This document shows positions 11,867 through 44,510 of a stretch of 64,000 bases of DNA, piece after piece. The first letter of the stretch is position 1, and every line of letters begins with the position of its first letter. The translations under genes and the position numbers were made by a program. The notes beneath the pieces are model-generated. The model did no database searches. It worked only from the letters and a program-made list of their open reading frames with translations, and had not been told where the DNA came from. Source of the stretch: Amycolatopsis jejuensis (GTDB lineage: Bacteria; Actinomycetota; Actinomycetes; Mycobacteriales; Pseudonocardiaceae); the NCBI RefSeq assembly GCF_000717335.1, contig NZ_JNYZ01000011.1:62001-126000 (forward strand). Direction: 5' to 3'.

Positions 11867-11876
11867 CCGCACGACC

Positions 11877-12030
11877 GATCGGCCGGGCCAACGGCTGACC
11901 GGAGATCGCGCACCGATCGGCCGGGCCAACGGCTGACCGGAGATCGCGCACCGATCGGCCGGGCCAACGGCTGACCCGGGACCGCGCACCGTTCAGCCGG
12001 GCGGAACGGGCTGATCCCCGGGTCGCGGCG
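11877..12030. repeat. 38-bp tandem repeat, three clear copies plus a degenerate fourth
   Basis: The 38-bp unit starts GATCGGCCGGGCCAACGGCT and recurs at 11877-11914, 11915-11952 and 11953-11990; a diverged copy reaches about 12030. Units 1 and 2 are identical and unit 3 has a few changes. The AACGGCTGACCG segment equals the last codons and stop of the 59-aa gene, so the array may have grown from that gene's 3' end. It lies between convergent genes. Confidence 0.9.
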
Positions 12031-20464: not shown

Positions 20465-21748
20465 TCACGGTTCGGCAGGCGGCGCCGTGCCGTGCCGCCC
20501 GGTGTGCCAGCGGTGCCACTCGTGCGCCTGCGCATCGGTGAGCGACGCCACCTGGTCGACCACCACCCGCAGCCGCGCCGCGTCGTCGGACGCCGCCTGC
20601 CAGGCCGGGACCAGCAGCGGGTCGAGCGCGTCCGGCGCGCGGCGGCACAGCGCGGCCACCAGCTCGGTGATCAGTTCCCGCTGCCCGTCCTGCATCGCGA
20701 GCCGCCGCCGGTCGCTCATCACATACCGCAGCGCCAGCGCCTTGAGCAGCGCGACCTCCGCCGCAACCTGGTCGGGCACCGCCAGCCGCGCGCCATACCG
20801 CGTGAGCGGGCCCTCGCCGTAACCCGCGCGCGTTCCGGTGACCGCCGCCGACGCGAACCGGCCGACCAGCTCGCTGGTGAGCCGTTTCAACGCGACCTGT
20901 GCCCTTAGTGACCCGTCCGGCGCCGTCTGCACCAGCTCCGCGACCACCGGCAGGTCGAGCAGTTCCTTCGCCGCACCCTCCAAAGTGGACACCGACAGCG
21001 TGGAGAAATGCCGGGCCGCGGCCTCGGCGACCGCGGCCCGCTCGTCCGGGTCGGCCAGCACCCGCAGCCGGATGCGCCCGGCCAGCACGCCGTCCTCGAC
21101 GTCGTGCACCGAGTACGCCACGTCGTCGGCCCAGTCCATGATCTGCGCTTCCAGGCACCGGCGCAGGCCCGGCGCACCCTCGCGGATCCAGCCGAACACC
21201 GCCGTGTCATCCGGGTACACGCCGTACTTCGGCTCCCCGGACCGGCGCGGCCACGGGTATTTCGTGGTGGCGTCGAGGCATGCCCGGGTGAGGTTGAGCC
21301 CGGCCGTGACCATCTTGGGCTCCAGCCGGGTGAGGATGCGCAACGTCTGCGCATTGCCCTCGAACCCGCCGCACGGCTGGGCGACCTGGTCGAGCGCGTG
21401 TTCGCCGTTGTGCCCGAACGGCGGGTGCCCGATGTCGTGCGCCAGCCCCGCGGTGTCGACCAGATCCGGGTCGGCCCCCAGCTCCTCGGCGATCCCGCGG
21501 CCGATCTGCGCGACCTCCAGCGAATGCGTGAGCCGGGTGCGCGGCGCGCCGCTGACCTCCGCGCCCTCCCCCGGCCCGACGACCTGCGTTTTCCCCGCGA
21601 GCCGGCGCAGCGCGGCCGAATGCAGCACGCGCGCGCGGTCGCGGGCGAACGCACTGCGCCCGTCCGGGCGTGCGCCGTCCAGCGCCGCGCCCTTGGGTTC
21701 CTCGGCCAGCACGCGGGCGCGGTCGTGCTCGCGGTAGCCGTCGTTCAC
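20465..21748 (-). CDS. dgt: deoxyguanosinetriphosphate triphosphohydrolase-like protein
   Basis: This 427-aa HD-domain enzyme removes triphosphate from dNTPs, lowering or balancing nucleotide pools. The HD motif is complete: [10 protein letters not shown], then [19 protein letters not shown] near residues 105-122, with the late Asp in [11 protein letters not shown]. Start [19 protein letters not shown] matches the family. In actinobacteria dgt and dnaG are normally close; here four genes separate them, so this is a local rearrangement of the usual order. Confidence 0.94.
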
Positions 21749-21778
21749 CCTGCCAGCTTAAGCGGGGGGTCTGACAAT

Positions 21779-22435
21779 TCAGCTCATGCTCGTGCCGAAC
21801 AGATCGTCCGCGGGCGACTTCGTCAGCTCGTAGAACAGCAAGGCGCCGGTCTCACGGAAGATGTAGCGCGCCTGGGTGGAGCGTTCCTGCACGACCGGCC
21901 CGCTGTGCGTCGGCGCGGCCCACGCGTCCAGCCCGAGGTCCTGGGCCATCGTCCGGGCGCGGTAGGAATGCCATGGGTCGCTCACGAGCACCACCGACCG
22001 CCAGCCGTGCGCCTTGACCTGGTCGGCGACCGCCCGGAGGCTGCGCAGGGTGTCGTTGCCCTCGCCGACCGGCAGCGTCGCCGCCTCGGGGACGCCGTGT
22101 TTGGTGAGCCAGCGCGCACCCGCCTGCGCCTCGGTGAAGTTGTCCGCCGCCTTCTTGCCCCCGGCGGTGACGATCGTCTTGGCGACCCCGCCGGCGTACA
22201 GCTGACGCGCTTTCTCCAGCCGCGCGGTGAAGATCTCCGACGGTTTCCCGTTGTACTGCGCGGCCCCCAGCACGACAATGGCGTCCGCCGGCGTGCGGTC
22301 GTTGTCCCGCGCGACCTGCCACACCCGGAACGCAGTCCCCGCAATCACCACGACGAGCACCAGAACCGCGCCGAACACGATCCGGCGCACCCAGTTCGCC
22401 GTCGACGGTCCCGTGCGCGCTTTCACGCCCGCCAT
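21779..22435 (-). CDS. YdcF/SanA family (DUF218) membrane protein
   Basis: This 218-aa protein has one N-terminal membrane segment (R-I-V-F-G-A-V-L-V-L-V-V-V-I-A-G-T-A-F) and a DUF218 domain beginning A-D-A-I-V-V-L-G-A-A-Q-Y-N-G-K-P-S, followed by I-V-T-A-G-G and S-D-P-W-H-S-Y-R-A. Members are linked to envelope barrier function and polysaccharide or lipid carrier metabolism. The ATG at 22435 gives a normal N terminus; the longer frame overlaps the response regulator. It lies 40 bp downstream of that gene on the same strand and may belong to its transcript. Confidence 0.88.
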   Translation of the reverse strand: MAGVKARTGPSTANWVRRIVFGAVLVLVVVIAGTAFRVWQVARDNDRTPADAIVVLGAAQYNGKPSEIFTARLEKARQLYAGGVAKTIVTAGGKKAADNFTEAQAGARWLTKHGVPEAATLPVGEGNDTLRSLRAVADQVKAHGWRSVVLVSDPWHSYRARTMAQDLGLDAWAAPTHSGPVVQERSTQARYIFRETGALLFYELTKSPADDLFGTSMS

Positions 22436-22475
22436 CCTTACAGAGGTGGTGTTCGGACTTCGGGAGGCACCCCGC

Positions 22476-23081
22476 TCAGAGCCAGCCCCGTTCCTCCGAC
22501 AACCGCACCGCCTCGGCCCGCGTACGCGCCCCGGTCTTGCCGATCGCGGACGACAGATGGTTGCGCACCGTCCCATCGGACAGGAAAAGCGCCTTGGCGA
22601 TGTCCGCGACAGTGCGGCCGTCCTTGGCCGCACTGAGCACGTCCCGCTCCCGGCCGGTGAGCGGACTGGTGCCGGTGGCCAGCGATTCGGCCGCGAGCGC
22701 CGGGTCGACCACCCGCAGTCCACTGTGGACCCGCCGGACCGCCTCGACGAGCTGCTCCGGCGGCGCATCCTTGACCACGAACCCGGCGGCCCCCGCGGCC
22801 ATCGCCCGCGCCAGGTATCCCGGACGGCCGAAGGTGGTGCAGATGATCACCCGGCAGGCCGGCAGCGCAGCCTTCAGCTCGGCGGCCGCGGTGAGGCCGT
22901 CGATCCCGGGCATTTGGACGTCGAGCAGCGCGAGATCAGGTCGCGACTGCCGGGCCGCGGCCACGACCTCGTCCCCACTGCCGACCTGGGCGACCACCTC
23001 GATGTCCGGCTCGAGGTCCAGCACCGTGGCCAGCGCGCCGCGCACCATGGCCTGATCGTCGGCGAGCAGTACCCGGATCAC
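22476..23081 (-). CDS. NarL/LuxR family response regulator
   Basis: This 201-aa protein has a receiver domain (I-R-V-L-L-A-D-D-Q-A-M-V-R, phospho-acceptor in L-A-L-L-D-V-Q-M-P-G, conserved Lys in F-V-V-K-D-A-P) and a C-terminal LuxR helix-turn-helix (L-T-G-R-E-R-D-V-L, I-A-K-A-L-F-L-S-D-G-T-V-R-N-H). The GTG start overlaps the kinase stop as GTGA, so kinase and regulator are coupled. It should be phosphorylated by the adjacent histidine kinase and probably controls the upstream ABC exporter genes of the same cluster, as in DesKR/LiaRS-type modules. Confidence 0.95.
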   Translation of the reverse strand: MIRVLLADDQAMVRGALATVLDLEPDIEVVAQVGSGDEVVAAARQSRPDLALLDVQMPGIDGLTAAAELKAALPACRVIICTTFGRPGYLARAMAAGAAGFVVKDAPPEQLVEAVRRVHSGLRVVDPALAAESLATGTSPLTGRERDVLSAAKDGRTVADIAKALFLSDGTVRNHLSSAIGKTGARTRAEAVRLSEERGWL

Positions 23082-24940
23082 GCGCTTCCTCCCGCAGATT
23101 CGGCCGCTCCACTCGGGCCCGGCTCCGGGACCTCGGCCCGGACCACCCATCCTCCCCCGAGCCGCCGCCGGATCACGAGCGTGCCCCCGACAGCGGCGAG
23201 CCGCTCGGAAAGCCCCCGCAACCCGTTCCCGGGCACGACTTCCTGCCCGAGGCCGGTGGTGGCGCTGTCCTCGGTTGTCCCGTGTGGTGCCTCCTGCCCG
23301 GCAGCTTCGCTGTTGTGGGCCTGCTGGCTCACCCCATTCCGTACTTCTCGCCCGGCGACCCGTCCGCTGGCCGGCCCGCTCGCCCCATCCCGGTCCTCTC
23401 GCCCGGTAACCCGGCCGTCGCCGACCCTCTCGCCCACTCCTTCCCGGGCCTCTCGCCCAGCAACCCCGCCTTCCTCATCCCGGGCCTCCCGCCCCGCAAC
23501 CCTGCCTTCCTCATCCCGGGCCTCCCGCCCAGCTCCGCCCTCCCCGCCCGGTTCCTCCCGCCCAGCACATCCGCCGTCACCGGCCCGCCCACGCACCCCG
23601 TCCCGGGCCTCTCGCCCGGCAACCCGGCCGCTGGCCAGCCCACTCACCACATCCCGGGCCTCCCGCCCAGCAACCCCGCCCTCCCCGGACCGCTCGCCCA
23701 CTCCGCCCTGCGTTTCCTGCCCAACACCTCCGCCGTCCCTGCCTGACCTCTCCCATGCCTCTCGCCCGGCAACCCCGCCCTCCCCGGCCTGCTCGCCCAC
23801 CCCGTCCTGCGTTTCCTCCCGAGCCACCCGGCGGTCACCGGCCTCGCCCACCCCACCCCGCACGTCCCGCCCGGCAACCCCACTCGCCAAGGCCTCCCGT
23901 CCAGCGCCGCCGTCGTCCTCCACCTCCAGCCAGTCACTCCCCAGCCGCACCCGCACCCGGTTCGCGCCCGAATGCCGCAGCACATTCGTGACCGCCTCGC
24001 GCAGCACGTAGCCGAACGTGCTCTGCAAGTCGGCGCGTACGTTGTCGGCCGCGTGTGGCAGTTCGGCGTCGATCTCGGCTGCGCGCAACGCCGCCCGCGC
24101 ACCCGCGATCTCGGCAGGTAGCGAAACTTCCCGATATTCCGACACCGTAGCGCGCACGTCCGACAAAACCGTGCGCGTGAGCCCCTCGACCTCGCGGATC
24201 TCTTGCACCGCACGGGGAATGTCCCCGGAGCTCTCCAGCACCCGCCGCGCGACCCCGGCCTTCACGGTGATCGTGGTGAGGCTGTGCCCGAGCAGGTCGT
24301 GCAGATCGCGGGCGACGCGTTCGCGCTCGTTGGCCACCGCCAGCGCCGCGATCTCCCGGTTCGCCTGCTCGAGCCGGCGGATCGCCCGGACCAGGTTGGC
24401 CATGAAGAACATCGCGAGCGTGATCGACGCCACGCTGATCAGGTCACCCCAGCTGCCCGCGAGCCGCCCGTCGATCTGCAGCACCAGCGCGACCAGGACG
24501 AACGCCGACAGGTCCAGCATCGCCGCCCAGGCAGGCGGAAACAGGAACGCAAGGCAGGCCGTGGCGTAGAGCAGGACGTACGGGCTGGTGTCGACGACCA
24601 GCGTGCACAGCAGGCCCAGCGCCAGCATCACCACCCCGAACCGCAGCTTCACCTGCCGGGGCCTGCCGAACACCAACGGGAACACGATGTAGCACGCACC
24701 GTAGGTGTAGAGCACGAGCCCGAGCAGGACCCGCGCCCACAGCGGCCCGGTGTCGTGCACGAGGCCGCGGGTGGCCGGGATCAGGAAAGGCAGCAGGAAC
24801 AAGACCGCGAAAATCGGCCAGCGGACCTTGTTCGGGCCGCCTTTCGGGTCCGGCGGCGGATCGTCCCACCAGGACTGCCTGCCGATGAGCGCGAACCGGA
24901 ACCGGCCGATCCCGGTCGCGGCAGGATCCATGGGCCACAC
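23078..24940 (-). CDS. sensor histidine kinase (HisKA_3/NarL type) with a large repeat insertion in the ATPase domain
   Basis: This protein has 620 residues, against about 400 for the family. Order: five or six membrane segments (residues 42-180), HisKA_3 dimerisation helix with phospho-acceptor His214 (A-R-D-L-H-D-L-L-G-H), N box L-R-E-A-V-T-N-V-L-R-H-S at 313-324, G1 box E-D-D-G-G at 341-345, then about 215 residues of Gly/Arg/Glu repeats (G-V-A-G-R-E-A-R-D), then the G2 box G-N-G-L-R-G-L-S-E-R-L at 571-581. The insertion therefore replaces the flexible ATP lid. All canonical motifs flank it intact, so the kinase may still work. A GTG at 24940 with a GGAAGGGG site is preferred; ATG 24931 is possible. 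It forms an operon with an ABC exporter upstream and its regulator downstream. Confidence 0.92.
   Translation of the reverse strand: MWPMDPAATGIGRFRFALIGRQSWWDDPPPDPKGGPNKVRWPIFAVLFLLPFLIPATRGLVHDTGPLWARVLLGLVLYTYGACYIVFPLVFGRPRQVKLRFGVVMLALGLLCTLVVDTSPYVLLYATACLAFLFPPAWAAMLDLSAFVLVALVLQIDGRLAGSWGDLISVASITLAMFFMANLVRAIRRLEQANREIAALAVANERERVARDLHDLLGHSLTTITVKAGVARRVLESSGDIPRAVQEIREVEGLTRTVLSDVRATVSEYREVSLPAEIAGARAALRAAEIDAELPHAADNVRADLQSTFGYVLREAVTNVLRHSGANRVRVRLGSDWLEVEDDGGAGREALASGVAGRDVRGGVGEAGDRRVAREETQDGVGEQAGEGGVAGREAWERSGRDGGGVGQETQGGVGERSGEGGVAGREARDVVSGLASGRVAGREARDGVRGRAGDGGCAGREEPGGEGGAGREARDEEGRVAGREARDEEGGVAGREAREGVGERVGDGRVTGREDRDGASGPASGRVAGREVRNGVSQQAHNSEAAGQEAPHGTTEDSATTGLGQEVVPGNGLRGLSERLAAVGGTLVIRRRLGGGWVVRAEVPEPGPSGAAESAGGSA
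23252..23884. repeat. in-frame imperfect minisatellite inside the histidine kinase gene
   Basis: About 13 units cover codons 353-563. The protein consensus is (G/R)-V-A-G-R-E-A-R-D-G-V-G-x-x-A-G-D-G. Most units are 17-18 codons (51-54 bp) and some are shortened to 11-15 codons, for example two with G-R-E-A-R-D-E-E-G. Every length is a multiple of three, and no stop arises. Units diverge at many positions, so the array is not a recent assembly artefact. The opposite strand is also stop-free over long stretches because of the GC-rich repeat. Confidence 0.93.
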
Positions 24941-24964
24941 GCCGACCTACCCCTTCCCGTCCGG

Positions 24965-25705
24965 TCAGACCCGGGCGCTGTCCTTACGGTAACGCCTGAT
25001 CACCAAGGTTCCGAGCACCACGGACCAGGCGCCGAGCACGGCCACCGCGGCCGGGAAGCCCACGAGCATCTCGCTCGTCACCGCGGGCCGGGCCAGCCCG
25101 ATCACCCAGTAGGTCGGCATGAGCTGCGCGACGTCGTGCATCCACGACGGCATGCTCTCCACCGGAATCCACAGCCCGCCGAGGAAACCCATGCCCAGCA
25201 TGACGATCATGCTGACCGGCTGCATCGACTCCGGTGTGCCGAACTGGCCGAGCACCAGCCCCAGCAGGACCAGCGGGATCGTGCCGAGCCAGATCCCCGC
25301 GACGATCCGCAGCCATGCCTCCGGGCCGAGGTGCACGCCCTGGGTGAGCGCCGCGAGCAGCGGGACCAGGATCAGTGCGGGCAGCCCGGCGAGCATTCCG
25401 GCCAGCGCCTTGCCGCCCAGGTAGGACATCCCGGACAGCGGTGTCAGCCGGAGCTGCCGCTGCCAGCCGCCTGCCCGTTCGACGGCGAGCCGCGTGCCGT
25501 TGGTCGTGGCCGCGGCGAACGTCCCGAACGCCATCATGTTGATCATCACCGCAGCCACCACCTGGACGTGGCCCGGGTCGCTTGCCTTGGTGAACACGTT
25601 GGCCTGCAACAAGAACATCAGGACCGGGAACGCGACGACGAAGATCAGGAACCGCGGCGAGCGCAGCAGCCGGCGGATTTCGGCGACCAGGTAGGCGGGG
25701 TTCAT
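24965..25705 (-). CDS. ABC-2 type transporter permease
   Basis: This 246-aa membrane protein has six hydrophobic segments, starting R-F-L-I-F-V-V-A-F-P-V-L-M-F-L-L and ending in the ABC-2 layout with W-I-P-V-E-S-M-P before the last helices. It pairs with the ATPase encoded just upstream; the stop/start overlap is ATGA. Such two-gene exporters next to a kinase and regulator often export or sense lipids, peptides or antibiotics (compare DrrAB, LiaFSR or DesKR-linked transporters). The cargo is unknown. Confidence 0.9.
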   Translation of the reverse strand: MNPAYLVAEIRRLLRSPRFLIFVVAFPVLMFLLQANVFTKASDPGHVQVVAAVMINMMAFGTFAAATTNGTRLAVERAGGWQRQLRLTPLSGMSYLGGKALAGMLAGLPALILVPLLAALTQGVHLGPEAWLRIVAGIWLGTIPLVLLGLVLGQFGTPESMQPVSMIVMLGMGFLGGLWIPVESMPSWMHDVAQLMPTYWVIGLARPAVTSEMLVGFPAAVAVLGAWSVVLGTLVIRRYRKDSARV

Positions 25706-26619
25706 CGGACTGCTTCCGTTTCGTCTTCGGCGGTCAGGGAAAGGAAGGCGCCTTCGAGGCCGACGGCGCCGATTTCGATGTCGTGCACGGCAGGAGCGGC
25801 GCTGAGGAGGGCGCGGAGGGTGACGTCGGAGTCCGAACTGGACAGCGAAACCCGGTCGCCCCGCAGTTCGAAGGCGGTGACTGCAGGAAGAGCCGCGACC
25901 AGGCTGTCGGTGACTTCGGGCAGTACGGCACGAATGGTCCGTCCACCGGCGAGCGCGCGGACCTGCGCCACGGACCCGTCCGCGACGATCCGCCCGGCCC
26001 GCATCAGCACGACGCGGTCGGCGAATTCCTCCGCCTCCTCGAGGTAATGCGTCGCAAACAGCACCGTGCGGCCGGTGTCGGTGAAGGAATACATCGACTT
26101 CCAGAACTCGCGCCTGCTACCGACGTCCATCGCCGCGGTCGGCTCGTCGAGCACGAGCAGATCCGGGTCGGACACGAGGGCGACCGCAAACCGGACCCGC
26201 TGTTTCTGGCCGCCGGACAGCTTGTTCGCCCGCCGCTCGGCAATGTCCTCGATCCCGGCCCGGCGCAACGCATCCGGTACCGGCAGGGGCCGCCGGTGGA
26301 GCTTCGCGACGAGACCGACGGTTTCGCGCACGGTGAGGTCGTCGAGCAGCGTGCCGCCCTGCAGCATCGCCCCGATCATCCCGGCGCGCACCGCGTCGCC
26401 GGGCGCCCGGCCGAACACCGAAACGGTGCCGTCGTCCGGCTTCGTGAGCCCCAGCATCATGTCCACTGTGGTCGATTTGCCCGCCCCGTTGGGTCCGAGC
26501 AACGCCACGACTTCCCCCGGTGCGATGGTGAGGTCGACGCTCTCGACGGCCCGCACGTCGCCGTACCGCTTTGCCACGCCGCGCAGCCGGATCGCCGCTC
26601 CGTCCTGTGTGTTGTCCAT
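25702..26619 (-). CDS. ABC transporter ATP-binding protein
   Basis: This 305-aa protein has a complete nucleotide-binding domain: Walker A G-P-N-G-A-G-K-S-T-T near residue 42, Q-loop A-M-L-Q-G-G-T-L, signature K-L-S-G-G-Q-K-Q-R-V, Walker B L-L-V-L-D-E-P-T, and the switch His in L-F-A-T-H-Y-L-E-E-A. A C-terminal extension of about 80 residues is typical of DrrA-like exporter ATPases. It is the first gene of the leftward group ATPase-permease-kinase-regulator, so the two-component system probably controls its own exporter. Confidence 0.94.
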   Translation of the reverse strand: MDNTQDGAAIRLRGVAKRYGDVRAVESVDLTIAPGEVVALLGPNGAGKSTTVDMMLGLTKPDDGTVSVFGRAPGDAVRAGMIGAMLQGGTLLDDLTVRETVGLVAKLHRRPLPVPDALRRAGIEDIAERRANKLSGGQKQRVRFAVALVSDPDLLVLDEPTAAMDVGSRREFWKSMYSFTDTGRTVLFATHYLEEAEEFADRVVLMRAGRIVADGSVAQVRALAGGRTIRAVLPEVTDSLVAALPAVTAFELRGDRVSLSSSDSDVTLRALLSAAPAVHDIEIGAVGLEGAFLSLTAEDETEAVR

Positions 26620-26700
26620 GCTGAGCAGCGTGCCGGTGCGCGGTGGCCGAGACGCAGGCCGAGCGTCACGTCCTGACCGTGACAGGTGTCAGGGGTGCAG

Positions 26701-28884: not shown

Positions 28885-29613
28885 CGTGCTCCCTGCGTCC
28901 GGTGAGTTCTCGAGGAGAGACATGCACCTGGGCGGGTGCGGGGTTGCATCGGAGTTCGGGCTGCGTTGGATTGGGCCGCGCGGGGGGTTGGGCGGCGGTT
29001 GGGCTGGGCCGCGCCGGGGGGTGGCAGCGGGGCGAGCTGAATCTGGGCGGGGGTGTGGGTTCGGCTGCGTGGGCTCGACCGCGTGGGCTCGACGGCAATC
29101 GGCACCGCACCAACGCCACCCGCACGAAGGGTCCCCTCGCAACGCACCACCCGCACGAAGGGTCCCCTCGCAACGCACCACCCGCACGAAGGGTCCCCTC
29201 GCGACACACCACCCGCACGAAGGGACCATTCGCAACTCCCCGCCCGCGAACGGACCACTCACAACCCACCACCCGCACGAACGGACCACTCGCGCCAAGC
29301 ACCGTTCCCTCCGCGCGACTGGCTCACGCAACCGGCGCGACCCCGCCGCTCGCACGAGGGGACCTCTCGCGACCAACCATCCGGCAGCGCCACCCACACG
29401 AAGGAACCGCTCGCGATACGAGGGGACCACTCGCGATCGAGGTCACGCATTCGCGCGCAACGAGCCATTCGCGGACCGTCACCGGCCCCGGCATCCGCAC
29501 GAAAGGTCCCTTCACAACCAACGCCGCCCCGGCCGCCGGGTGAGGGGGCCACTCGCGACCGGCTGGCCCACGCGGCCGCCACCGGGCCGGGACGACCAAG
29601 CCCCGGCAGTCGG
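28885..29613. other. gene-free interval between two sortase genes, filled with minisatellite DNA
   Basis: No supported gene is present. All long frames here come from the repeat (H-P-H-E-G and similar). The right half, 29119 to about 29530, is a tandem array; the left part, 28925-29110, is G-rich (many GGGCCGCG and GGTTGGG tracts) on the plus strand. The promoter of sortase copy 1 must lie near 28890-28930. Confidence 0.6.
29119..29300. repeat. 31-bp minisatellite with GAAGGGTCCCCTCGC core
   Basis: Units of 31 bp starting CCCGCACGAAGGGTCCCCTC occur at 29119-29149, 29150-29180 and 29181-29211 almost unchanged. They continue as diverged copies at 29212-29242 and 29243-29271, and further to about 29530 (for example CACGAAGGAACCGCTCGCG). 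The unit core is a short palindrome-like GAAGGG-TCC-CCTC related to the elements at 16861 and 34836. There are no unique spacers, so it is not a CRISPR array. Confidence 0.92.
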
Positions 29614-31734: not shown

Positions 31735-32379
31735 ATGGCATCGGCAACCTCGAGCGCCCTGTCGGCAGGAACGGATCCCACGGACGCAACGTCGGCCGGA
31801 TCGCCGGGCAGTGCTTCACCCACCGTGGGCCCGGCATCCAAGGGTCCGGCATCGACGACCGCAGCTCCGGCCGCACGCACCACCGGCCCGGGCGCCGCGG
31901 ACAGCGCCGACGCCTCCGCGCAGGCCAGTGCCGCCGAGGGCCATGGCCATAGCGAACGGTCGGCGCTTCCTCCGGATCCGCCGCATCCGGCCGGTTCGGC
32001 CAGCCCCGGCTCCCCCAGCGCGGCTGGCACGCCCGACAACGCCGGCACGCCCGACAACGCTGGCATGCCCGGCGACGCTGGCATGCCCGGCGACGCTGGC
32101 ATGCCCGGCGACGCTGGCATGCCCGGCGACGCTGGCATGCCCGGCGACGCTGGGATCGCTATCGTGCTCCAGTTGCGGGAGGCGGACCGGTGCGTGCACG
32201 AGCTCGTGGATGCGCTCGACGTCGCCCAGCCGTTGATCAGCCAGCACCTCCGTGTCCTCAAGACCGCGGGCGTGGTGCAGGGTGAGCGGCGTGGCCGCGA
32301 GGTCGTCTACCGGCTGGTGGACGATCACCTGGCGCACATCGTCGTCGATGCGGTCACTCACGTGCAGGAAGGGAAGTGA
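31735..32379 (+). CDS. ArsR/SmtB family metalloregulator with a repeat-expanded N terminus
   Basis: This 214-aa protein is about twice the usual ArsR length. Residues 1-97 are Ala/Ser/Gly/Pro-rich, residues 98-139 are seven six-residue repeats (G-T-P-D-N-A or G-M-P-G-D-A), and the winged helix begins abruptly at I-A-I-V-L-Q-L-R-E-A-D-R-C-V-H-E-L, with the recognition helix Q-P-L-I-S-Q-H-L-R-V-L-K and wing G-E-R-R-G-R-E-V-V-Y-R-L. The first helix and the usual L-x-D-P-x-R segment are missing. GGAGG five bases before ATG 31735 fixes the start. Its stop overlaps the zur region, as in mycobacterial smtB-zur (Rv2358-Rv2359), so a zinc-sensing role is likely. Confidence 0.85.
   Translation: MASATSSALSAGTDPTDATSAGSPGSASPTVGPASKGPASTTAAPAARTTGPGAADSADASAQASAAEGHGHSERSALPPDPPHPAGSASPGSPSAAGTPDNAGTPDNAGMPGDAGMPGDAGMPGDAGMPGDAGMPGDAGIAIVLQLREADRCVHELVDALDVAQPLISQHLRVLKTAGVVQGERRGREVVYRLVDDHLAHIVVDAVTHVQEGK
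32026..32151. repeat. 18-bp in-frame tandem repeat in the ArsR gene, seven copies
   Basis: Two units GGCACGCCCGACAACGC(C/T) are followed by five identical units GGCATGCCCGGCGACGCT, from 32026 to 32151. They encode (G-T-P-D-N-A)2 (G-M-P-G-D-A)5. Five exact copies indicate a recently expanding, potentially length-variable tract directly in front of the DNA-binding domain. Confidence 0.97.
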
Positions 32380-32844: not shown

Positions 32845-33768
32845 TCAGTACTCATAGGGATCCTTGGGTGCACTGATGCGCTCGACGGTCGCCGGGACGA
32901 GGTCGGGCGTGTAGCTGTTCGCCTCGGTCGCGGTGCCCGGGACGACCTGCCCGGTGACGCGCAGCCACGTATCGCTCGGGAACCGGTCCGCGCCCTGTTT
33001 GAGATGGACTGTGACCGGTGCCGCGTCGGCCGCGCAGCAGCTGATCACCAGGCGTGCCAACAGGGTTTGGCCTCCCGCGTGGACGACGAAGCCGGAGAGC
33101 TCGACGGTGCGCCCGTTCAATGTGCCGTTGGCATCCCAGCCGGCGCGCGTGACGACCTCGTTCATCGCCATCGGAACCACCGCCCCGGCGGGAAGCGGCG
33201 GGAACGCTGCCGCCGACGTGGTGGCGGCGCTCGCGGGCAGCCGCGCCTCGGTGCGGGTGACGGAATCCGCGCCGAGGGCGGGCGGCGCCACGAGGAAGAC
33301 CGCGAGCACGGGGACGACGAGCAGCCACGCCGAGCGGGCCGGGTGGTGGTGGCCGTGTGTGTCGGTGGCTGGGTGCGTCACGTCGGTGGATAAGCGGGTC
33401 ACGCTGCTGGCTGGGTGGGTCACGTCGGCGGACAGGTGCGTAACGTTGGTGGGTGAGTGGGTCTCGCCGGGTGGATGCGGGGTCGGGTCGGCAGGTGGGG
33501 GCTGTTGCAGCGGGTGCGCGCGGGGATGCTGGTCGGCGGCTGGATTTCCGGTGGGGGCATAGGTTTCCGCTGACTTGGCGGCGCTGCGTGCGGCGAGCAG
33601 GTCGCGGATGACGGCGGCTGCGCCCAGCAGGATCATGACTGCGCCACCCGCGATGATCCATGGTTGCTGGGCCGGTTTGACGTAGCGCAGGTAGTCGCCG
33701 TTGAGCGCGATCTTCACGAGGGCTCCGCCGAGCAGGATGAGGAGGACGTTCTGCGTTTCGCGTCTCAT
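32845..33768 (-). CDS. YcgQ-like/TIGR03943 family membrane protein (putative permease subunit)
   Basis: This 307-aa protein has two N-terminal membrane helices (L-L-I-L-L-G-G-A-L-V-K-I and I-I-A-G-G-A-V-M-I-L-L-G-A), a Pro/His/Thr-rich cytoplasmic linker with five heptads (T-H-x-x-x-x-V, residues 103-137) and H-G-H-H-H at 138-142, a third helix (W-L-L-V-V-P-V-L-A-V-F-L-V-A-P), and a C-terminal domain with V-V-H-A-G-G-Q-T-L-L-A-R and the conserved S-C-C-A-A-D-A. The family works with a YcgR-type permease, encoded immediately upstream with an ATGA overlap, and is often zinc-regulated. The His-rich linker suggests metal binding. The gene converges on zur. Confidence 0.85.
   Translation of the reverse strand: MRRETQNVLLILLGGALVKIALNGDYLRYVKPAQQPWIIAGGAVMILLGAAAVIRDLLAARSAAKSAETYAPTGNPAADQHPRAHPLQQPPPADPTPHPPGETHSPTNVTHLSADVTHPASSVTRLSTDVTHPATDTHGHHHPARSAWLLVVPVLAVFLVAPPALGADSVTRTEARLPASAATTSAAAFPPLPAGAVVPMAMNEVVTRAGWDANGTLNGRTVELSGFVVHAGGQTLLARLVISCCAADAAPVTVHLKQGADRFPSDTWLRVTGQVVPGTATEANSYTPDLVPATVERISAPKDPYEY
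33358..33462. repeat. 21-bp in-frame tandem repeat encoding His/Thr heptads
   Basis: Five 21-bp units encode T-H-S-P-T-N-V, T-H-L-S-A-D-V, T-H-P-A-S-S-V, T-R-L-S-T-D-V and T-H-P-A-T-D-T in the linker of the YcgQ-like protein. Units have diverged but keep the frame and the T-H...V pattern. Confidence 0.85.
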
Positions 33769-44204: not shown

Positions 44205-44354
44205 GAACACACCCTACAAACCCACAACGATGGTGACCGACGCACCACGCGGCTCCGCCGCTACGCGCTTTTCCGTCGCCACGCCGACTCGGCTCGGCCG
44301 CTCCGCGGCACGCCGCTCTTCGGCCGCCAGACCCTCACGCACCCACCGCACCAC

Positions 44355-44480
44355 GCGGCTCCGCCACTACGCACCCTGCGGCTCCGCCACTACGCACTAT
44401 GCGGCTCCGCCACTACGCAACCGACGCTCCACACGGCTCCGCCGCAACGCACCACGCGGCTCCGCCGCAACGCAACCGAC
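44355..44480. repeat. 23-bp minisatellite (GCGGCTCCGCCACTACGC core)
   Basis: Near-identical 23-bp units lie at 44355-44377, 44378-44400 and from 44401, followed by copies reading GGCTCCGCCGCAACGCACC to about 44480. A diverged copy lies near 44246. The GGCTCCGCC half is itself part of a GGC/GCC inverted pattern. Confidence 0.88.
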
Positions 44481-44510
44481 CCTCGGGACGCAACCACCGC
44501 ACCGTGGGGG

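Follow-up and report, generated by a model that had tools for sequence, protein, structure and literature searches.

Within a 64,000-nucleotide stretch of the Amycolatopsis jejuensis genome (the window), a DesK/NarL-type sensor histidine kinase carries 226 residues with diverged tandem repeats between the G1 and G2 boxes of its ATP-binding domain. We propose that this is probably a working kinase with an ATP lid that grew in place by in-frame repeat amplification and is tolerated as a surface loop. Protein and literature searches found no precedent for an in-frame repeat expansion of a DesK-type ATP lid; among the open-licence PMC papers listed, none was on tandem repeats in the ATP lid of a histidine kinase, and the expansion is known so far from one lineage. 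Also new is an independent, partly repetitive second lid insert in the same genome. The kinase, its landmarks and the first bases of the repeat cores are located as follows.

23078..24940, minus strand: DesK/NarL-type sensor histidine kinase with swollen ATP lid (open reading frame, HisKA_3 Pfam match, 119 relatives)
24122..24328, minus strand: HisKA_3 dimerisation/phosphoacceptor domain, residues 205-273 (PF07730, E 2e-15)
23906..23920, minus strand: G1 box EDDGG, residues 341-345 (two alignments)
23231..23908, minus strand: ATP-lid insert, residues 345-570, with 14 diverged repeat cores (Tandem Repeats Finder (TRF), core scan, lid-length comparison)
23198..23230, minus strand: G2 box and start of the next helix, GNGLRGLSERL, residues 571-581 (alignment)
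23908, 23878, 23827, 23773, 23728, 23674, 23623, minus strand: first bases of cores 1-7 (core scan)
23569, 23536, 23500, 23464, 23410, 23359, 23305, minus strand: first bases of cores 8-14 (core scan)

The reading frame (23078-24940, minus strand) encodes 620 amino acids from a GTG start that aligns with the starts of several relatives, and the phosphoacceptor His214 is encoded at 24299-24301. The relatives compared are the 119 listed besides the kinase, out of 1768 matches (60-75% identity); the closest of those listed are Amycolatopsis kinases, mostly 70-75% identical outside the insert. H214, N319, D342/G344 and G571-N-G-L (to L574) are invariant across the 120-row alignment, in agreement with a preliminary description of the window that had found all kinase motifs present. 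From G344 to G571 the kinase has a gap of 226 residues, as against 7 in 101/119 relatives and 8 in 18/119. The alignment confirms the claim that the insert sits exactly between G1 and G2, and the orthologues do not all share some unrelated domain there, every one of the 119 having only those 7-8 residues. Lid-like residues persist at both edges (DDG-GAGRE ... GLGQEVVP-GNGL), so the lid is interrupted rather than replaced; the earlier estimate of a lid replaced by about 210 residues had the right site and too short a length.

The core scan identifies 14 cores with the consensus GG-VAGREARDG across residues 345 to 546, one more than the roughly 13 tandem units of VAGREARDGVG first described. Successive cores are spaced by 30, 51, 54, 45, 54, 51, 54, 33, 36, 36, 54, 51 and 54 nt. 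That the units always keep the frame was correctly seen, as 13/13 spacings are multiples of 3, and their range is slightly wider than had been thought (10-18 rather than 11-18 codons). TRF reports five overlapping or adjacent arrays within 23327-23810 (scores 56-163), covering 23327-23533, 23554-23680 and 23776-23810; the array runs head to tail and in frame, as expected of an intragenic coding tract of the variable-number tandem-repeat type. The insert is 26% Gly, with 32 basic and 44 acidic residues and a net charge of -12, and its coding strand is 53% G, with a third-position GC of 0.757 vs 0.907 in the preceding part. Its seven G-quadruplex motifs are matched in number by 44/500 shuffles, and no Rfam gathering-score match to a structured RNA occurs in 21700-26700.

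The insert is present in one of 80 genus genomes, its own, and in 0/79 congeners. A word-based, capped search of 5.8 billion proteins scored 7979 word-sharing candidates, of which only the kinase's own protein passed. With only that protein and that genome matching, there is no sign of a known domain in the insert. The unit was also rejected as a dispersed DNA element: its core pattern (at most 3 mismatches) has 7 matches in the gene and 3 scattered three-mismatch matches in the remaining 10.1 Mb, where a control pattern has 1.

The predicted structure contains a single DesK-like ATP domain around a disordered tract, with both halves folding together, and the predicted fold aligns with DesK (3ehg). 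A PF02518 (HATPase_c) match is limited to residues 310-345, ending at G1, and its 22.3 bits lie below the Pfam cut-off of 26.4; the listing of 75 HATPase_c matches in its genome does not include the kinase. The missed cut-off is a weak mark, since PF02518 is likewise missing for many of the listed short-lid orthologues (precomputed column). Membership in the HisKA_3 kinases rests on the HisKA_3 domain, the N, G1 and G2 boxes and the fold.

Proportions of nonsynonymous and synonymous differences (pN, pS) provide a measure of constraint. By this measure the kinase core shows the signature of purifying selection: against the 14 nearest of 40 orthologue rows (9 genomes, some in two collections) its pN is only 0.054-0.071, and between the His box and G1 its pN/pS is about 0.15-0.21. 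Comparing repeat units with each other in the kinase frame yields a pN/pS of 0.58-0.60 when all 13 units that follow the first core are used and 0.41-0.46 for the 8 clearest, vs 0.80-1.47 in the two other sense frames. Uncorrected pS between units (0.35-0.44) is similar to that between the core and its nearest orthologues (0.33-0.43), so the array would date from roughly the time when the nearest sampled species split off; this age is a rough estimate, codon composition differing, and the core looks to have been constrained over that time. Alignment columns conserved at 98% or more are unbroken by the kinase in residues 21-195 and 571-605; one is broken in 196-270 and one in 271-344, and 8/119 and 12/119 others, respectively, break as many.

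The gene cluster is likewise conserved. The adjoining genes are:

22476..23081, minus strand: cognate LuxR/NarL-type response regulator (Response_reg and GerE Pfam matches)
24965..25705, minus strand: ABC-2 permease, DrrB-like (Pfam; NCBIfam below cut-off)
25702..26619, minus strand: ABC transporter ATPase, DrrA-like (Pfam; NCBIfam below cut-off)

The GTG start of the regulator overlaps the TGA stop of the kinase (GTGA). A stop-start overlap of the two genes is present in 11/11 named Amycolatopsis loci compared (of 17 loci in all), with a regulator identity of 87-94%, and all 11 have the order ATPase, permease, kinase, regulator and then an ElyC-like gene. The transporter resembles DrrAB in sequence. 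Given the conserved operon, the kinase/regulator overlap, the unbroken columns after the insert and the single predicted ATP domain, the kinase looks functional. If the frame were broken in the array, G2 would be lost and the regulator could be affected as well. The divergence of the units was initially taken to imply selection for an open frame, and the silent-biased pN/pS of 0.41-0.60 favors this, but the mere fact that the rest of the ATP domain (its second half) and the overlapping regulator follow may be enough to protect the frame. Phase alone is no proof of selection, as the unit is a multiple of 3 nt in most prokaryote satellite families (excerpt of PMC6749651).

We propose that expansion started from a short lid like those of the relatives, for example EDDG-GAGxEVVP-GNGL, and would have proceeded by successive in-frame tandem duplications, with later divergence by point changes, to the 14 recognisable cores. 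One relative's lid is EDDGGAGDVVPGNGLR, and the insert starts EDDGGAGREA and ends GLGQEVVPGNGL; based on this resemblance of the edges, the simplest origin would be duplication of the lid segment itself. The product would be a long, Gly-rich, acidic, disordered loop. Since the lid begins and ends at neighbouring points on the surface, the ATP domain flanking this loop should still be able to close, and a surface loop of this kind would tolerate the insert. Out-of-frame changes, which would cost the kinase the second half of its ATP domain and interfere with the overlapping regulator, are expected to have been removed. Whereas the position and phase of the insert, its uniqueness among the genomes searched, its conserved flanks and the conserved gene cluster are directly observed, we infer the slippage or unequal recombination, the starting lid, the retained kinase activity and the lack of a specific role.

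The environment of the gene narrows the possible causes. A generally repeat-rich genome was rejected as a cause: strong arrays (TRF score at least 100) number 4.0 per 100 kb here, or 16 in 400 kb from 20 stretches, vs 1.0-6.0 in eight congeners sampled at 100 kb each; one of the 20 stretches, L092, was picked for holding the second kinase described below. Strong arrays lie inside gene-like reading frames in 1/16 cases here and 5/30 in the congeners by a crude test that leaves the array of that kinase uncounted. The window itself has 8 strong arrays in 64 kb (12.5 per 100 kb), about three times the sampled rest of the genome. Loss of NucS was also rejected, NucS being found in 80/80 genomes, this one included. 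With array density ordinary, NucS present and the unit not dispersed, local slippage or unequal exchange in the G-rich lid-coding DNA would remain as the ordinary cause.

Some further repeats were seen. Five other tandem arrays of the window, at 11874-12002 (period 38), 29116-29293 (31), 32023-32153 (18), 33361-33492 (21-63) and 44347-44501 (23-55), fall outside gene-like reading frames as judged by codon-position GC. A dispersed motif, AAGGGAACC[AT]TCAC, has 12 matches in 464 kb of the genome (in L090, L094, L096, L097, L098, L105 and the window) and none in 800 kb from eight congeners. Letters resembling it turn up again in the consensus of some 30-32-bp tandem arrays, and the motif possibly marks a lineage-specific repeat family. 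In one congener the NucS_C match is in three pieces (G043:C11:108297-130378), possibly a disrupted gene or an assembly break.

Two distantly related kinases of this genome carry long low-complexity lid inserts. The second, L066 (G000:C11:421700-424897), is also a HisKA_3 kinase and has 170 residues between its G1 (NDGG) and G2 (GSGYGIAGM). About 225 of the 510 bases of its insert (44%) are tandem repeat, with a 54-bp unit in 3.7 copies (TRF); four cores match at 17-20/20 bases in steps of 54, later weak matches (13-14/20) are partly out of phase, and the remainder is of low complexity with no clear repeat. By eye, the units of the two kinases share no common motif. The window kinase and L066 inserts are both Gly-rich (26% and 28%) and acidic (net charge -12 and -14); in both the coding strand is rich in G (53% and 48%) and third-position GC is lowered (0.76 and 0.66). 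Of the 75 HATPase_c matches listed in the genome, only that of L066 ends at G1 (4-54 of 111); three others end early (80, 92, 93). Upstream of the L066 gene there is a further, distinct 33-bp tandem array (L092 14243-14454), and elsewhere in the genome a HATPase_c match with one in-frame TGA (L312; G000:C16:85929-86252) is possibly a decayed kinase.

Long lids appear to be rare beyond these two kinases. The seven nearest congeneric relatives of L066 (52-56% identity) have lids of about 8-12 residues. Fourteen of its 119 listed relatives (out of 3119 matches) are at least 494 aa long, and no long lid was found in the 8 of these read by eye; seven of the 8 have all or part of a second kinase unit, and one (500 aa) has a longer membrane part. 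Five chains of 657-806 aa from ena/jgi sources (P0133, P0139, P0143, P0154, P0164) have by eye two HisKA_3 units each, some with one ATP domain missing or shortened. The genome has 30 HisKA_3 kinases, and by eye the 28 besides these two have short lids; in L081 the extra length is located after G2. In five congeners 110/196 HisKA_3 matches were read (6/48, 34/49, 16/21, 28/36 and 26/42, mostly the stronger ones), and none of the 110 kinases has a comparable insert, as none exceeds 239 residues from HisKA_3 start to stop; one, L245, ends before G2. In 28 of 29 kinases taken from other genera in the class, no more than 237 residues separate the phosphoacceptor motif from the stop, and the lid of the remaining one, L327, is short; the longest lid seen, that of L341, has at least about 35 low-complexity residues. 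The lid of L189 (G009) has about 36 low-complexity residues with DDGTGF at both ends, which suggests a local duplication around G1.

Several points weigh against an in-place amplification that was simply tolerated. One antisense register that shares wobble positions with the kinase frame has an equally low pN/pS (0.39-0.57), and the unit comparisons are non-independent, with uncorrected distances. Relative to the core, the C-terminal piece has a slightly raised pN (mean ratio 2.16 vs 1.83 for other pairs). The kinase's end branch in a 37-row tree (0.16) is double the median (0.077), though comparable to those of other lone rows such as P0003 (0.17) and P0026 (0.25). At the DNA level, the first core matches the unit consensus at 17/23 bases, and one other place in the gene scores as high; for the last lid residues, the best match is 13/23 bases and out of phase. 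An edge-copy match of this kind is within chance reach, and we infer the lid-duplication origin. Finally, lid inserts in 2/30 kinases here vs 0/110 in the congeners (Fisher p 0.045, a weak result) hint that two in one genome exceed what blind toleration would produce.

This last point bears on an adaptive role, in which a length-variable, acidic, entropic loop would alter ATP affinity, lid closure or the autokinase rate, and unit number would tune the response of the ABC-transporter cluster. Such regulatory tuning by the repeat tract, raised in the preliminary description, is possible, and it would account for one genome having two lid inserts of like composition (226 and 170 residues), for the conservation of unit sequence in the coding frame, and for a site where known ATP lids are mobile and variable in length (excerpt of PMC10017428). 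However, no intermediate lid is seen, all 119 listed relatives having 7-8 residues; G-rich coding DNA alone can give a similar composition; and unit conservation may only reflect selection against hydrophobic or aggregating residues. We regard an adaptive role as unlikely. Toleration of a disordered loop is no worse a fit to the data than tuning of autophosphorylation, and the insert is most likely tolerated rather than regulatory. A broader version, in which HisKA_3 lids are a recurrent site of in-frame repeat growth in this lineage and the acidic loops are tunable entropic gates whose length sets kinase gain in at least two two-component systems, seems doubtful to us, as only about 44% of the L066 insert is recognisable repeat.

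Alternatively, the insert could have crippled ATP use, leaving mainly a phosphatase or a dead sensor whose frame is kept only for regulator synthesis via GTGA. The stop-start overlap in every one of the 11 loci would suit this proposal, as would, weakly, the truncated, sub-cut-off HATPase_c match and the absence of the gene from its genome's 75 listed matches. The column counts and the low pN/pS of the core given above, and a model in which both ATP-domain halves fold together, nonetheless make such a loss improbable. An assembly or sequencing artefact hiding a short lid is hardly credible: the assembly is a draft of 136 contigs and the array is held by one sequence on one contig, but its longest exact repeat is 27 bp and no array 31-mer recurs on either strand of the window, so ordinary short reads should place it uniquely, and the units are diverged and in frame.

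If the kinase is indeed a working enzyme with a tolerated insert, the lid loop seems able to absorb a large disordered tract, and repeat amplification could enlarge a catalytic loop with no evident loss of the enzyme. With about 160-220 additional lid residues, and in one case signs of retained constraint, these two natural kinases would make it possible to test directly whether autophosphorylation, phosphotransfer and phosphatase activity depend on the length and order of the lid. They also point to a site for a disordered tag or sensor in a histidine kinase.

The window kinase shares with DesK/NarL-type HisKA_3 kinases (B. subtilis DesK; PDB 3ehg, 3gig, 5ium) the HisKA_3 His, the N, G1 and G2 boxes, a helical, membrane-type N-terminal half and an adjoining LuxR-type regulator. 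It differs in its lid, which is short in DesK and in 119/119 relatives listed and here has 226 residues with repeats. Its gene order is that of other Amycolatopsis clusters of a DrrAB-like exporter with a two-component system (11/11), among which the insert occurs only here (1/80 genomes). As in other bacterial intragenic tandem repeats, the unit is short, in frame, of low complexity and found in one lineage. Most known cases sit in surface or linker proteins, whereas this array interrupts a kinase's ATP domain. Among the parts of kinase ATP domains the lid varies most; it is mobile, and the span from N box to G2 is 39-61 residues among the kinases compared (excerpt of PMC10017428). MaeK of Lactobacillales also has an unusual ATP-lid region in a sensor kinase; as described in an excerpt of PMC5457438, its ATP domain is without the boxes and the lid, whereas the window kinase has kept its motifs and its lid has grown.
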